Shown here in pieces: positions 1,504 to 35,942 of a DNA stretch of 64,000 nt. The stretch lies in NCBI GenBank assembly GCA_000697355.1, contig JNEN01001236.1, positions 1 to 64,000 on the forward strand, written 5' to 3'. The notes beneath the pieces were generated by a model. It did not search any database, was not told the DNA's origin, and saw only the letters and a program-made list of their open reading frames with translations. Source of the DNA: Syncephalastrum monosporum B8922. Its lineage: Eukaryota > Mucoromycota > Mucoromycetes > Mucorales > Syncephalastraceae. Both the position numbers and the translations under genes were made by a program. Each line of letters opens with the position of its first letter. Positions within the stretch are counted from its first letter, which is position 1.

Positions 1504-1522
1504 AGATGTGTATAAGAGACAG
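1504..1522 (+). other. Tn5 mosaic end (Nextera adapter) embedded in assembly
   Basis: AGATGTGTATAAGAGACAG at 1504-1522 is an exact 19-of-19 match to the hyperactive Tn5 mosaic end used in Nextera libraries. It is preceded by ATCT, as in the mate-pair junction adapter, where two mosaic ends abut. A natural fungal origin is very unlikely. The base order across this point should be treated as unverified. Confidence 0.9.
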
Positions 1523-2065
1523 ACAGCCCATATACATTATTATACCATGATCAACATATGACATGCATACATATTATTATCTCCAGTCGACGTCATGCAC
1601 GCAACCTGGAGGGGGGCTATGTGGTAAACCATCACCCGTCGGGTCATCTCGTTACCGTTGAGAAAGTCTAGATTGGCCTCTATACCCAATCGTAGTATCG
1701 GTTGCTATCATGCACTTATTCAACTCCTCCATCGCCGGTTCAATTAACTGCATATGAAACCGTAAAGAAGTATTCCATACTGCTTCTCTCATCTAATGGC
1801 ACAGTTCCATATGCAAGCTGCATCTGCCATTGTATATTCAATCACAGGTACACCGTACCTGATGAAAATATTTTATTATCTTATTACTGGTTCTTTCTAC
1901 TCAGCTGGATGAAACATATTTAATTCTATATAAGACGATAGTTGGATAGACATAGTTATCATATCATATCTTTTACCTGATACTCGACTTACTCAATATA
2001 AGTTCAGTCTCACTCATTCTCTTGTTACCTTTTATTTTCTCTACTACTCATTTTTCTCGCTATAT

Positions 2066-2078
2066 CTCAAGGGGGTAA
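2066..2078 (+). other. Polypurine tract upstream of LTR copy 2
   Basis: The purine run AAGGGGGTAA lies immediately before the TGTGG start of LTR copy 2. That is where a retrotransposon plus-strand primer lies, so copy 2 looks like a genuine 3' LTR with its internal domain to the left. No reverse transcriptase, integrase or gag can be read in 1523-2065. Confidence 0.5.
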
Positions 2079-2957: not shown

Positions 2958-5451
2958 TTTCTTTTGGTCTCCCAATCGTATAGCTTATCCGCGCGGCTAC
3001 TGTAATAGCTTCTTTGAAGGAGACATTACTGAGACTAATTATGGAGCAAACAGATCATACCTGTGTTAGAGATGATGTGATATTGAGGATGGAATAACAA
3101 CATCCATGATGAGCAACCATCTCATAACTACACACAGCTTTGAGAGTAGACCGTTTTCATAAAGATGAGTCGACCTGACAGATAAATGGTTTATCAATAT
3201 ACTGACAACAAAGTCAGTCTTTACTAAAAAAAATCGAGAATCCGAAGAAAGCAAATACTACTCTGTTCCGAGCGAGTCCAGACCTTATGGTCATTTGTGC
3301 GGACGGTTTCGTTGAATACCGCAGAGAGTGTCACGGACGCGTTTTACGTCAGAAGGCGCGAGAAGCCTCAGTCGAGAACGATTTACCAGCCGATGGTGAC
3401 ATTGTCATTCATATCGAATTCGCTTGTAGTGGAGATGATGATCCTGGTGGGATGAGTAATGTCGGCAGTGTGTACATTCTTGAATTGTAAGTTTCCTGGA
3501 GAAGCTGTGACGGAGAAACCTAAAAAAAGAAAAGCAAGTGTACAGTACACTGTGCATCTGGAGGTCGGATATCCATACGAAGACGAGCTATAAAGATTAA
3601 CTGGAGGTTTCCAATTGCGCTTTTGTTTCCATAGTAGTGCACGTATGTTGTCACTATATCGTTACAGCTATAGGATCATGTCTTTGATCATGTCGATTAA
3701 TTTTGATGATCTGTACACGGCCAGAACAGGGCGACATCACCATCTCCGTGGCAATGAAGAAATGAAACTGAAAACAGACAGACTGTGGTGCCACGGATCT
3801 GAAGGCAGAAGGGCTCATTCACATCTCGAACGCTGAATGAAGGTTCACGTGTGATGGCAGCGAGCTGTTTACGAAGCTGCTTATATCTATACCAAGCGCC
3901 AAGCTTCTCTTGCAACATCATTTGAAGACGTCACTTGCTATCTGCCGGGTATTTATATAAGCGCATTGTACTCATTACAATAGGCTTTCAAGCGAAGGCT
4001 GAAGGGACATATGAAAGAGAAATAAAATCACCAATTGATCCCTGTATACCGATTGATGAATCTGAGCGTCAGTAGGACGAAGAAAATTCGAAAGAGGCAT
4101 GTTAGCTGTCCTCAGGACCAGATTCGCTCCCGAGAGATGCCATGTTTATACTTTCCAGCAAGCCGTAGCTCGTACTAGTCACTCGATATGCGCTATTGTA
4201 TAATTGTTTAGAAAAGAGTATAATCATTTTCGTTAGAGTCATACTTTTAGATGGACGCGAACGTCACGCGTGGAAAATTCTGGACGTCCGCTTACTGTGG
4301 GTACAAGCTGACGAACAAACCTTTAAACCTGAACTTCTCTTTCTCGGCGTATACAGACATTATAAAACTTTGCCGAGTTTGATTGTCTAGCTGTTTTCTA
4401 TGGCTCGTTCCTTCTTCCTCTTCTCGCTTCTCCGCCGCATGTTTCATTAAGCACTTGGCAGGTTGTCGAGCCTTCAACGTCCCAGTACTGATGTTCCTTA
4501 CTCATGATGTATCTGTTTCCGCTTGCGCATGGTTGGTTAACAGCGCATCGACAGCGTCCGCATCTCCGAGCGAGCAAGGGTCCATGGCCCCCCTTTGCTT
4601 GGCAATTGATACTTACATTGCTCTTTCAAGTACTTTGTCGTCACACTACCCCAAGCTCTATACTGTCTCTCGTCGGGTTATCGTCGGACTACTGTGCTAC
4701 CGTTACTTCTATCTGTGTTGCGAAAGTGCGTGCCTTCCGGCGAGTCACTGCTAATTGCTTTTCTTCTGTCTTACCGTAGCTTTTACTGCAGCCATATAGC
4801 CATTCGATCAGTCTTCGGAAACATGCGGTCGTAGTCTTGCTTGCTTGATGTCGATTTGAGTCCGTCGGGCTCTATCACGAAGGTTTGTGTCGGGCGGGGG
4901 GCAGGGTTTTCCTCGTCCTGGATTGATTGCCACTCAAGCCGCAGAGGGCCATCGACCCTGCACAGCGATTGCCCGTCCCTAAAGATGATAACGTAGGACG
5001 AAAGTGGGAAATGAAAATATCTTACCCAGCTTACAGGAGGTACTGTACTTGGTAGAACCTTTCCGATTCTGGCTGGTCGGATTAATATTTCTTTCCTGGA
5101 TATATCGTTCAAGTCGAGCTGCACATGCACCAAGGTACAATGCTAAGGCAGATTGCAAACCGACTTATGTTTCAAAAGTTAGGAACAGCTTTGATTTAGT
5201 TTCTGGTAAAATAGAAAGTATGAAAACCCTAGCGCTAGGAATCCGAAAAAAAAAAAACGAAATGGACAAATGACATGAAGGTTTCTGGGGCGGTGTTTCA
5301 AACGTTAGAAAAACGGGCTGATTGGCGTATGCGGGTTGGGGCGTCAATCGTCTGCCTGTTTTTCTTGGAGATATCTGCTTTTCATTATAGTTAGTTTTAT
5401 CATTATTCTGTTCTATTTTATTTCATTTGCTCTTTTTTTACGGCGTTGACC
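2958..5451. other. 2.5 kb without a supportable gene
   Basis: Only short open frames on both strands; none shows a recognisable domain or a convincing splice chain. The frame at 3287-3490 (67 codons, plus) is the most protein-like but stands alone. A TATA-like stretch at about 3950-3957 has no gene behind it. The last 100 bp before 5452 are pyrimidine-rich, as expected of the leader of the following gene. Confidence 0.4.
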
Positions 5452-7347
5452 ATGGACTTTTTCGATTTCGGCGGGCCGCATGACGTCTACAGCACAAACG
5501 GCAACATCAATCACGACGCCCATGAGCATGATTTTTTAGCGTTTGCGAATGGGACGACTGAATTTACGCATCCTACGAGCCATGAAGATCTGCAAGCAAG
5601 TCAGTCACAGACGCTTCCCTTCAAACTGGACGGGTCCTTTGCAGAGCCGCAGCTCACACCGGATGGAAAGGACAGCCACGCATATACCAACAGCAGTGTC
5701 CTTACCGGCCATAACCCGGAGTACACCATGTCACCGCTCCAGATATCCACTCGCCCCGGCCAAAACATCCGCCACACACGGAAAGCGGTAGACGAGATCA
5801 CTAGTTTCAATGAAGACGAGGTACTTGTGCTTTCTCAAAGAAAAAAGAACCGAGTTCCTTTTTTTATTCTGGATTTGATTCGGTTCTATCTCTTTTATGC
5901 TGGTGCAAATACGAATACTCATCTCGATGTCTGTTCCTCTAAACAGGAGTTTTTCAGCCCACTGGAGTCTCCAGCAATCGCACCCACGTATGATACACCA
6001 CTTCATCGGCGAAAGGATGGGATGATAAACGCACGGTTTTCGCCGCTCACGTCACCGGCACTGAACGCCCAGCAACAGCATGGCCTCGATCCCCATTTTA
6101 ACCAGACTAGCACCCCCGAGAACATCCTGCAGCAAAAGCTTGCTTTGATTGAGCAACAACAGCAGCAGTTGCGCACTGCCCACCGCCAGATGCAAGAGCA
6201 CCACACCCCGCTCACCACCACAACCACAACCCCCACCATAACGACACCATCGTCATCGAAGGATAACAATACACATCAGCATCAGCACCAGCATCAGCAC
6301 GAACAACAACAACAACAACAACAACAGCACCAGCACCAACACCAGCATCAGCACCAGCAGCCGATTGCGCCCTCCCCGCATCTCCATCCCTATGTTTCCC
6401 CGAGCACGTCTGACGTGAGTGCCCCCTTCTCCCGTCCTTTGGCGCCCGCCACGCCGTCGCTACTCATGAAACTCGGTGGTGGTGGCGGAACCACGCCTGC
6501 TCAGCTGCAGCACCAGCAGCACCAGCAGCTCCAGCACCAGCAACAACACCCGCTGCAACAGCAGCCATACAGTCATGTTGTGGATAACATGCCATCTCTT
6601 CCGGCGGCCATGCTGGAAGATAAACAGCCGCAGCCGGCTGCGGGAAAATCCAAGACGCCGTCCAACAAACGACGAAAGACAACGCGGGCTTCAGCTGCCT
6701 TCACGTCACCAGGACTGGCCCCTACTGCTCACATGTCTCCTCGGCCTCATGCAACGGCCCCGACGATAGCCGCGCTTGTATCCCCTGCCGCTCTTCGCCC
6801 TCAGCCAATAGCATCATCGCCACGTGCCCTCAAACCACTCATCTCGCCTTCGTTGCAGCCGAACGGGAAACGCTTGTCGGCCATGGAAGAGCAGGTCGCA
6901 GCCGCCGAACTGGCCACCAAGAGCAACTACCAAAACATGCGCGAGGGCAAAGCCAAGAGCCTTGGGATTGACTTCTCCAGCTCGTTCCAGTCCGGCGTCG
7001 AGAATCGACGGTCGGCTCACAAGGCGGCGGAGCAGAAGCGGAGGGACACGCTGAAACAAAGTTTCGACTCGCTTCGCCAGGAACTGGCCGACGCGTTGAT
7101 TGATGCGGACATGGAGCAGGGCCCTGCACGCCAAGCCCTGAGAGAAGAAAAGGAGAAAGAGGTCAAGCAGATGAGCAAGGTGCTGCTCATACAGCACTCG
7201 TACGAATACATCCTACGACTCAAGAACCAAAACCGCCACAAAGACGACGAAATGGAGAAATTACGGGACCAGGTGCGTCACTTACAGAAGCAGCTTCAAG
7301 ACGGACCGGCACCTACGTCAGGAAACGGAACACATGCGGGTCACTAG
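5452..7347 (+). CDS. bHLH transcription factor (Pho4/NUC-1-like class)
   Basis: DNA-binding regulator, presumably nuclear. Exons 5452-5820 and 5947-7347 give 589 aa. The start is the ATG in ACCATGG after a pyrimidine-rich leader. The C-terminal bHLH (roughly residues 485-570) begins NRRSAHKAAEQKRRD, with the His, Glu and Arg residues that contact an E-box. It has an unusually long charged loop and is followed by a leucine-bearing coiled coil. Serine-proline modules occur in the middle, including EFFSPLESPAI just after the intron and RFSPLTSPAL, resembling conserved activation motifs of fungal bHLH proteins. A His/Gln repeat tract lies near 6277-6360. The 126-bp intron keeps frame and has no stop, so a 631-residue retained form is possible. 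The family is secure; the exact orthologue is inferred. Confidence 0.85.
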   Translation: MDFFDFGGPHDVYSTNGNINHDAHEHDFLAFANGTTEFTHPTSHEDLQASQSQTLPFKLDGSFAEPQLTPDGKDSHAYTNSSVLTGHNPEYTMSPLQISTRPGQNIRHTRKAVDEITSFNEDEVLVLSQRKKNRVPFFILDLIRFYLFYAGANTNTHLDVCSSKQEFFSPLESPAIAPTYDTPLHRRKDGMINARFSPLTSPALNAQQQHGLDPHFNQTSTPENILQQKLALIEQQQQQLRTAHRQMQEHHTPLTTTTTTPTITTPSSSKDNNTHQHQHQHQHEQQQQQQQQHQHQHQHQHQQPIAPSPHLHPYVSPSTSDVSAPFSRPLAPATPSLLMKLGGGGGTTPAQLQHQQHQQLQHQQQHPLQQQPYSHVVDNMPSLPAAMLEDKQPQPAAGKSKTPSNKRRKTTRASAAFTSPGLAPTAHMSPRPHATAPTIAALVSPAALRPQPIASSPRALKPLISPSLQPNGKRLSAMEEQVAAAELATKSNYQNMREGKAKSLGIDFSSSFQSGVENRRSAHKAAEQKRRDTLKQSFDSLRQELADALIDADMEQGPARQALREEKEKEVKQMSKVLLIQHSYEYILRLKNQNRHKDDEMEKLRDQVRHLQKQLQDGPAPTSGNGTHAGH

Positions 7348-7646: not shown

Positions 7647-9235
7647 ATGGGCTTCTTTCAGACCCTCCTCAATTCACAATCCAGAGCGGTTGCTAATCCC
7701 AAAGGAGTCAGCGATGTTCCCCAATGTGCAACCGAGAAGCCTCCTTCAATGGACAGAACCCGATCCAGCCATTCGCAACCGCCGTCGGCTCAGGCACCCC
7801 AGCCGAATCACCGACAACAAAAAGAGGTGCCCACTGTCAAGAGTACGTCCGACGCGCGGTTCCAAATCCTTGCAGACGGCAGCCACGTTCACCGCCTGAG
7901 CTGGTCTGCCCACAGCCGATTTGCATCCTCTCTGAATGGCCTTGTGGACGGGCTGTTCAACAGGGACTCGAACCGCCCGTTCAAGTTACCGCTGTGGGGA
8001 GGTGAAAAGCTATCGCCTGACACGCTGCAGGAGGAGCGCGCGGCAGTCGATGCAACGCTCCGTCGCACAACCTCCGACTCTTCCCTCACCCAAAAGTGGG
8101 GTACCTGCCACGAAGTCATCGGCAAGGGCGCGTTTGGCAAGATCAAGATTGCACACAAGACCGACGGCACGCACGAACGCCTGTATGCAGTCAAGGTGGG
8201 GGGGATCTCTTTTCATTTTATTGCATTGTATTGCAGTTCATTGCATTCCCATGATTGCTCTGTTCTATCTTGCTTTTTCTTGTTATTCTGGTATTGTTTT
8301 GAGCTCATGGAGTGTAATATTGGGTCTCCATTTAGGAATTTCGGAAAAGGAGTTCAGAATCGTCCAAGGGTTATGTCAAAAGGCTAACCTCAGAATTCTG
8401 CATCTCCTCCACGCTGTCCCATCCGAACGTCGTGCGCTCGCTCGACCTCCTGCCTCTCAACGAGACCTCGCCTATCTACTGCCAGGTCATGGAGTACTGC
8501 GACGGGGGCGACCTCTTCAACCTCATTTTCGAGACCTCGGACGGCCTGCAGCCCGTGGAAGCCAACTGCTTTTTTAAGCAGCTCATGCGTGGCGTCGATT
8601 ATCTGCACAGCATGGGCATTGCGCATCGTGACCTCAAGCCAGAGAACTTGCTGCTGAACCGCAACGGCTGTTTGAAGATCACCGATTTTGGCTCGGCCGA
8701 CTGTTTCCAAGCCATGTGGAAAGAAGACGCGATGCACTTCTCCAAAGGCCTTGCTGGCTCTGAACCTTATATTGCGCCGGAAGAGTTTGTTCAGCAAGAA
8801 TATGACCCGCGCAAGGTCGACATCTGGAGTTGCGCTGTCATTTACATGGCCATGAAGACCGGTTGCTTGATGTGGCGGGTGGCCGTCTCCGGCGAAGACG
8901 ACGACTATGACAAGTACATTAGGTTCCGCCAGCTCTTGGACGAGGAACGCCAAAAGGCACGCATGCGGGCCAAGCAGCAAGAATCAGGCGGTCAGTTGGA
9001 TCGTGAGCAGGTCCTCCGTGCGCGTGAATCCATCCGGAAGCGGGCCAAGGAGAGCGGCTGTGATGTGCTCGAAGGTCTCGAATTTGGCGCCAAAAAGCTC
9101 ATCTATCGCATGCTGGATCCCAATCCTACCAAGCGCATTCTGACTAACGAAGTCCTCCACAATGAATGGTTCGCCCGCCTCGACTGCTGCCAAGAAGACG
9201 CCCCCGCCTCTTCATCGTCACTATCGTCATCATGA
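7647..9235 (+). CDS. Ser/Thr kinase, Hal4(Sat4)/Hal5 family
   Basis: Exons 7647-8195 and 8336-9235 give 482 aa. Kinase domain: glycine loop GKGAFGKIKIAHK, catalytic Lys in YAVK right at the splice junction, HRDLKPENLL, DFGSAD and GSEPYIAPEEF. The segment after the junction (EFRKRSSESSKGYVKRLTSE) and the phrase GSEPYIAPEE are hallmarks of the fungal Hal4/Hal5/Npr1 kinases, which in yeast stabilise plasma-membrane cation and nutrient transporters. A charged insert of about 50 residues lies between the APE and C-terminal subdomains. The N-terminal 140 residues are disordered. The 140-bp intron splits the lysine from the following family motif. A role in ion homeostasis is inferred from family membership. 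Confidence 0.9.
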
Positions 9236-33511: not shown

Positions 33512-35942
33512 ACTGGTGTGCACACACGGTTAGATTAAGAAGAAAAGGAAGAAGAAGAAGGAATAGAAGAGGGAAAAAGAAAAAGGGTAGCTTCTTTACA
33601 AGTGGTCGAAAATTGTGGGAAAAAAGCGAGAATAAATAAGGACACCTTGCTTGCGCGCAAAGATATTTGATTTGATATGGGGCAATCATGCTCCCCTCAC
33701 TCAATCTCTCGCTCTTTATGTTTCCCTTTGTCGACGTGACACCAACAGCGGGTGAGATCCAAAACCTAGGACCAATGACGGCGCGGATTGATAACAACAA
33801 AATATGTCCATCTCGCCTCTATTATACCCATTCTGATGAAAACAAATACCTCCCCACTTTTGCTGCTCGTGCCCCTTCCTCTATCCAAGGCCACCTTCAT
33901 CATTCTATACAACTTTACCCATAGTCATGGTGCGTGCGAATCTGACCGGGCGTACAGTAGCGGGATTGCAAAAAAAAAGTTTTTTGTCATGTGGCATCAT
34001 CCCCAATCTTGCCCTGGTGATAAGACGGACTCCGACCACAAGAAGACGGTGCAAAAAGATACGCCTTTTTTTTATTATTATTATTTTGCGGCCCAGGGTC
34101 CCCGCTTTGAAAAAAAAGAAGGCCCGAGTTCTTTTTTTTATCAAAAAAGATCAAGCGTCTGAATTGTACGCTATGTTAATATGCAAACGGGCAATCATTC
34201 ATGGTGAATTATACATTCGTGCGACCTCTATTTTGAAACTAAATGGCAATGTACCTCCTAAACTCGCCACTGACGCACTTCTATTCGCAATTCGCGTGCT
34301 TTGGCACTCGTTTCCCTTATACACATCTTTGCATCCTATCCTTTTCTGTTCCTTCCTCTCTTCCCACCTATCAAGACGTTGTCTGTAGGTTACTGTTGTC
34401 TGGAGCTAGTATACAGGATGGATTACCAAAGAGCTGGATGTTTGCTTGTTCTAGTTTAGTGTCTAGGGAGTGGAAGTGCCATGTGCAACAAGCTTTTCCC
34501 ATTACCAAGGGAAAGCAGAGCAACGAAAAAAAAAAAACACTCTTTGTGTGCTAAGCGAGAGCGTGCGCGCGCGTGCACGAGTGCACCAATCCACTGGCTA
34601 ACCCCCTTTGAGGCAACCTATTATCATATCTATGTTGTTCCCGGGCCGTCATGTCCTCTTATCTTCACGTAAGTATATCGCATTGGGCACGCGCGCCCTT
34701 TGTTCCTTTTCTTTTCTTTTTTTTTTTTATTCTTTGGCACTTTTCCCGATTGAATGACAAGTCCACACGCCTGTCTCTTGCATATATTTTATTTTTATTT
34801 CGTTCTTGTACTAACCATTTTTTGATCCTTGAATGCTTGTATACATGATCTTGTGTTATTCAGAGAAAGAGAGGGTCATGTTAGTACTATAGAATAAAGT
34901 TGCTTTCATGTCCATGGCCGGAAGAAATTACCGTAAACGCTATGGACTGATTACATTGATCCATACTCTTTGTCGCCATGGATAGAGAATGTGTGTTTTC
35001 TTTCACCGACGCATAGTCATAATGATTAGATGTGAGCATAAAAAAGATGAATAATCGTAGCGGAATAGTAAGAGCGGCGCATTTTTTTTTAATCGCCAGA
35101 AGAAAATTATCAAGACAACGGGAAATGGGCACCGTGCGTGAACAATGTGTGTGCGTAAGCGTGCGTGTGCATGTGTACGTTCTCATCAATCCGTCCCACA
35201 TACCTACTGATTGGTACAATACCGCTCCCAATAGAATGGAAACACTTCTAGATTTTCACTCGAAAGGGTGATTTTACCCGCGCAACTTTATGACAACTGT
35301 TTCATCTGCTGTCGATCTGTCTTTGGCACATTTCGAATAGTGAAAAGTATGTCTGGTCGTTGCTTTTTTTTTTTCACTTGCCCAATTCATGGGCTAATTG
35401 ACAGGACGGAAGGTATTCTTTATAAACATGTGTCTTGCTCTATGGGCACAGAGCCCTTATTTCCAAGACCACGGGACAGCAGAAACATGGTCTTTTCGCC
35501 ACATTATCATTGCCTTGCAGATCGCACGTGAGTCTCTCGCTTTAGGAAAAATGAGGAGGCCCGGTCGATTTTTCCCGCGGAGGTCAAGAAGAACACCACT
35601 ATGACACAAGCAGAAAGAGCAATTATTGGTGCTTAATATCTGCCACGCCCTTTGTGTAATCATTTTCCATGATACATGAAACGATCCTTCAGTTTCATAA
35701 AGAATCGGTCTGTCGGTCCGCCTACTGGAACGCTCGACATGTGAGTTTTGACTTTATTTTCTACGCTTCTGTAGAAACACGGACTTGGGCATAACTTTAT
35801 TAGATCAACACGTCAAAATGGGATATGTCCAAGATACCACATAAACAAGACAGCATACTATGCTCTGTCGATACGGTTTTGGTCGTTTTTTTCTCAATTG
35901 GATGCAAATATACATAGCAAAGAACAGTGTCACCGCTTTCAT
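33512..35942. other. 2.4 kb intergenic
   Basis: 5' flank of the MHR gene on the left and 3' flank of the Integrator-like gene on the right. Many A/T homopolymers. ATG-initiated short frames near 33927 and 34651 (the latter running straight into GTAAGT) could be first exons of small genes, but no continuation is convincing. Confidence 0.35.

Follow-up and report, generated by a model that had tools for sequence, protein, structure and literature searches.

An exact Tn5 mosaic end inside a Syncephalastrum monosporum contig as the very probable mark of a false or gapped join

The stretch of DNA analyzed here (the window; 64,000 nucleotides) starts at the first base of contig C161 (75,958 bp), and on its forward strand at positions 1504 to 1522 it carries the 19-mer AGATGTGTATAAGAGACAG. 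This 19-mer is very probably a residue of a Nextera-type adapter lying at a false or gapped join in the assembly, rather than a biological insertion. All 19 bases are the same as those of the Illumina Nextera, or hyperactive Tn5, mosaic-end adapter, as identified from an excerpt of PMC6172800. Whereas the Nextera adapter is met at the ends of reads, the window 19-mer sits inside a contig. The sequence-only reading had named these bases as the Nextera mosaic end and had warned that the sequences to their left and right may not be contiguous. The identity was exact, and in line with the warning, five of the six sites at which the 19-mer occurs in the assembly, namely, C178, C148, C152, C175, and the window itself, show an interruption of either sequence similarity or a gene at that point. 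With five independent breaks behind it, the feature would be an ordinary artefact.

The same reading had proposed screening the whole assembly for the 19-mer. In the assembly searched (27,528,251 bases, or 27.5 Mb, in 198 contigs), six exact copies were found, one each on C142, C148, C152, C161, C175, and C178, and no copy with one mismatch, these counts being lower bounds; a reversed-pattern control gave no match. By our own arithmetic, about 0.0002 exact matches would be expected by chance in 55 Mb, counting both strands. The six copies lie in unrelated contexts and are unaccompanied by diverged copies, and six perfect copies of this kind present the pattern of an added adapter, not that of an old repeat. 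Partial adapter copies elsewhere were ruled out by exact searches with the 5' and 3' 15-mers (the latter searched in exact form only), both of which returned the same six sites. Within the window, a search allowing up to three mismatches gave one further match, at 34310 to 34328 on the reverse strand with three mismatches, and 100 shuffles of the window gave none at that tolerance. We take this second match to be due to chance, since its 15-base part is one of six additional one-mismatch matches of the 5' 15-mer in the assembly (at about 34.3 kb), against eight for the reversed control. Index-side adapter tails were absent by exact search from 342,787 bases around the loci, including all six sites; such tails are not required of a trimmed adapter residue.

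The break in the window itself was seen most clearly on its right arm. Positions 1523 to 2078 (forward strand) are a repeat that appears to come from the 3' end of the internal region of an element resembling an LTR retrotransposon, truncated by the adapter. Elsewhere in the genome, 45 places match this repeat; for 36, the match starts at query base 79 or later and is uninformative on the breakpoint, and seven of the nine with an earlier start were compared. Six of these seven have sequence upstream of the breakpoint (33 to 300 bases compared), and each of the six upstream sequences is like at least three of the others, while the seventh copy begins at the end of its contig. The shared upstream sequence has no match longer than 18 bases anywhere in the window. 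On the left arm (1022 to 1503), only positions 1022 to 1094 recur, in five places, and the genome yielded no second copy of the arm that reaches 1503.

Two LTR-like copies on the forward strand, at 512 to 1021 and 2079 to 2588, lie on opposite sides of the adapter and are 98% identical over a 300-nt stretch. The first is flanked by TAGTTAG at 505 to 511 and 1022 to 1028, giving a target duplication of 5 to 7 bases, depending on the LTR end chosen. Its right flank occurs in five places; four of them (L038, L039, L040, and L041) join both flanks without an LTR, and in the fifth (L042) the flank is preceded by different sequence. These flanks identify the first copy as a solo LTR, the target duplication belonging to it alone. 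The second copy is preceded by CTCAAGGGGGTAA, which resembles a polypurine tract, and it resembles a 3' LTR, the body of its element being truncated at the adapter. A single LTR retrotransposon spanning 512 to 2588 does not agree with the TAGTTAG duplication, which surrounds the first LTR alone and does not lie outside both. The spacing of 1567 bp between the LTRs is meaningless as the length of an element, and the suspicion that had been cast on the pair was justified.

The mariner-like relic, which had also been called suspect, lies on the reverse strand at 1347 to 1502 and consists of the last 52 codons of a frame assigned by eye to the Tc1/mariner-like transposases; it ends at the adapter on its upstream side. 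The 52-residue piece gave no Pfam match at an E value of 0.01, and seven other places in the genome encode relatives. In the one relative compared, on C111, the frame goes well upstream of the residue at which the window meets the adapter. This comparison is suggestive of an artefactual break in the frame, which natural decay could also explain. The relic itself is present in the sequence, and the suspicion held for its extent, the frame stopping at the adapter while its homologue continues. Adjoining the transposase frame and outside it are 23-nt inverted repeats at 1098 to 1120 and 1286 to 1308, with 165 nt between them, which resemble transposon ends and together look like a small nonautonomous element. 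A perfect 57-nt inverted repeat (2705 to 2761 and 2900 to 2956, 138 nt apart) probably belongs to a mobile element, because related copies occur in L018, L029, and L035. Farther along the window are two open frames that by eye resemble a glutamine/histidine-rich bHLH protein (5446 to 7347) and a protein kinase (8432 to 9235).

On C178, the large-subunit (LSU) rRNA agrees with its model over roughly the first 400 positions, after which the adapter follows and the sequence departs from the model. A search of the genome with this locus gave 36 matches besides itself, and bases 691 to 709 are crossed by none of them: three end exactly at base 690, four begin exactly at base 710, and the remaining 29 are confined to one side. 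Both the left-hand repeat and the LSU sequence continue elsewhere, each with different sequence. Three other LSU stretches (at the far end of C178, on C47, and on C114) run as single matches through the breakpoint, each being cut by a contig end. At the C178 locus (L006, L076, and L077), the sequence next to the 5.8S gene is also repeated many times in tandem-like fashion.

On C175, the sequence to the left of the adapter has a GC content of 17%, and that to the right has a GC content of 45%. The left side is matched as far as base 1432 by part of C52, and the right side from base 1452 onward by part of C129; beyond the breakpoint, each of these departs to other sequence. None of the 42 matches besides the locus itself crosses the adapter (40 of 86 candidates scored). 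The 17% GC part (L005, bases 1 to 1432) has relatives on C52, C111, and C158.

On C152, the 743 bases that directly follow the adapter (1520 to 2262 of locus L003) recur with 100% identity as the opening 743 bases of C20, a contig of 239,620 bp that runs into other sequence after the shared part. Because of this perfect duplication at the end of C20, the right arm of C152 (about 8.3 kb) most likely belongs with C20, and the join would be false rather than merely gapped. Just past the breakpoint, C20 encodes part of an LtrA domain (profile positions 109 to 206 of 356), and the protein of the C152 right arm gave no Pfam match at an E value of 0.1; that the LtrA gene of C20 extends into the C152 right arm is only our own reading.

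On C148, the adapter falls within a kinase gene and keeps the frame open through it (VLALEE-DVYKRQ-LLEHGG) without the kinase N-lobe, the Pfam kinase match of the frame starting at profile position 95 of 263. In a paralogue on C188, about 702 nt lie between the matching codons. This extra stretch gives a kinase match to profile positions 2 to 72, which includes the start of the Pfam kinase domain, and it probably holds an intron, since two frames are involved. A protein database search with the C148 frame gave 211 sequences above threshold, the best 120 of which were listed and examined. Among these 120, 106 match on both sides of the adapter, and all 106 have 201 to 235 residues in between (median, 206); a Rhizopus microsporus protein is among the relatives, at 58% identity, and this relative and the eukaryotic rRNA point to a fungal source, perhaps within the Mucoromycota. 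One sequence, P0001 (source tag lgn), agrees with the C148 frame at 216 of the 217 residues that precede the adapter, then differs, heading into the kinase N-lobe, and stops short of the far side of the kinase. From the C188 paralogue, the 106 relatives, and P0001, it is concluded that about 200 residues present in relatives are absent at the C148 join, as judged by these alignments. Solved structures gave 132 sequences, and only a short kinase stretch was matched among the 60 of 132 shown. At the sixth site, on C142, no second copy was found in the 1.2 kb searched.

The proposed origin of these sites is as follows. The 19-mer would be the Tn5 transposase mosaic end of a Nextera-type library, remaining after incomplete trimming. 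A library fragment would start with the mosaic end followed by real DNA, which in the window would be the right arm, from 1523 on. The assembly would have retained the adapter as genome and abutted it to another contig end (positions 1 to 1503), leaving two arms that are not established neighbors, with the sequence between them missing or wrong. The join itself may have arisen by overlap, by gap closing, or from a chimeric library molecule. At each site, one arm follows the 3' end of the mosaic end and the other lies against its outer end, an orientation that resembles a tagmented fragment on the 3' side, and the sites would fit either a join made at a contig end that carried adapter or a chimeric molecule in the library. 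Several points count against this explanation. If incomplete trimming were the whole story, a second adapter would be expected where the other arm meets the outer end. For the left arm of the window, the evidence of a break is the shortened relic frame, and decay could give the same result. The loci searched contained no index-side adapter tails. P0001 stops before the far side of the kinase and so does not by itself bridge the gap at C148.

A special case of the adapter-residue explanation is that the arms are in their true order with the middle missing, a gap having been closed on an adapter-bearing contig end. The C148 site favors this: a single kinase gene supplies both arms, correctly ordered and oriented, and the missing part is represented by the roughly 702 nt of the C188 paralogue. 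C152, where the right arm overlaps the end of C20, does not fit, and nothing indicates that the two arms of the window are adjacent; as an account of the window, this case is possible but somewhat unlikely. Both kinds of join seem to occur, with true neighbors and a missing middle at C148 and a false join at C152.

A Nextera mate-pair junction, in which the arms would be the two ends of one circularized fragment joined through the junction adapter, is improbable. The Nextera mate-pair junction adapter contains the 19-mer, and the sequence-only reading had held that the ATCT preceding the window 19-mer fits such an adapter. These bases are present and equal the last four bases of a mirrored mosaic end. 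However, the double, 38-bp form of the adapter occurs at none of the six sites, and its mirrored sequence is absent from the 342,787 bases of loci searched. The four-base match is confined to one site in six, the other five having 2, 0, 2, 0, and 0 bases matching the mirrored end. A junction trimmed by a nuclease should, moreover, lose the outer ATCT first and not keep it. The claim was not supported by this comparison.

The mosaic end is derived from the ends of Tn5/IS50, and the 19-mer is exact and clean, as might also be expected of a genuine insertion of Tn5 type or of a 19-base match native to the organism, yet this account has almost no probability given that just 19 bases are present at each of six places, that a 9-bp target duplication is found at none of the six, that five sites are broken, and that no exact wild-type IS50 outer or inner end lies in the 342,787 bases of loci (overlapping loci counted more than once).

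If, as we consider very probable, the 19-mer is adapter residue, inferences drawn across 1504 to 1522 are void; this applies to the LTR pair and an element age based on it, and to how far the transposase relic extends. The same sequence breaks four further contigs of the assembly and makes a fifth suspect; a kinase gene model and an rRNA locus are among those affected. We give roughly even chances to a more general proposition, that an exact internal mosaic end in draft assemblies precisely marks a false or gapped join, that chimeric or truncated proteins can look real through its translation (DVYKRQ and those of the other frames), and that such joins might be listed across public databases by screening for the 19-mer and its translated forms. 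Counting against a wide spread of such translations, none of eight mosaic-end words was found in the best 120 of the 211 C148 kinase relatives. A literature search at title level returned no title on internal mosaic ends as misjoin markers, a result that concerns titles and makes no claim about what is in print. For S. monosporum, the finding is a warning about data quality and not about biology, and the artefact is usable as a flag for the assembly.
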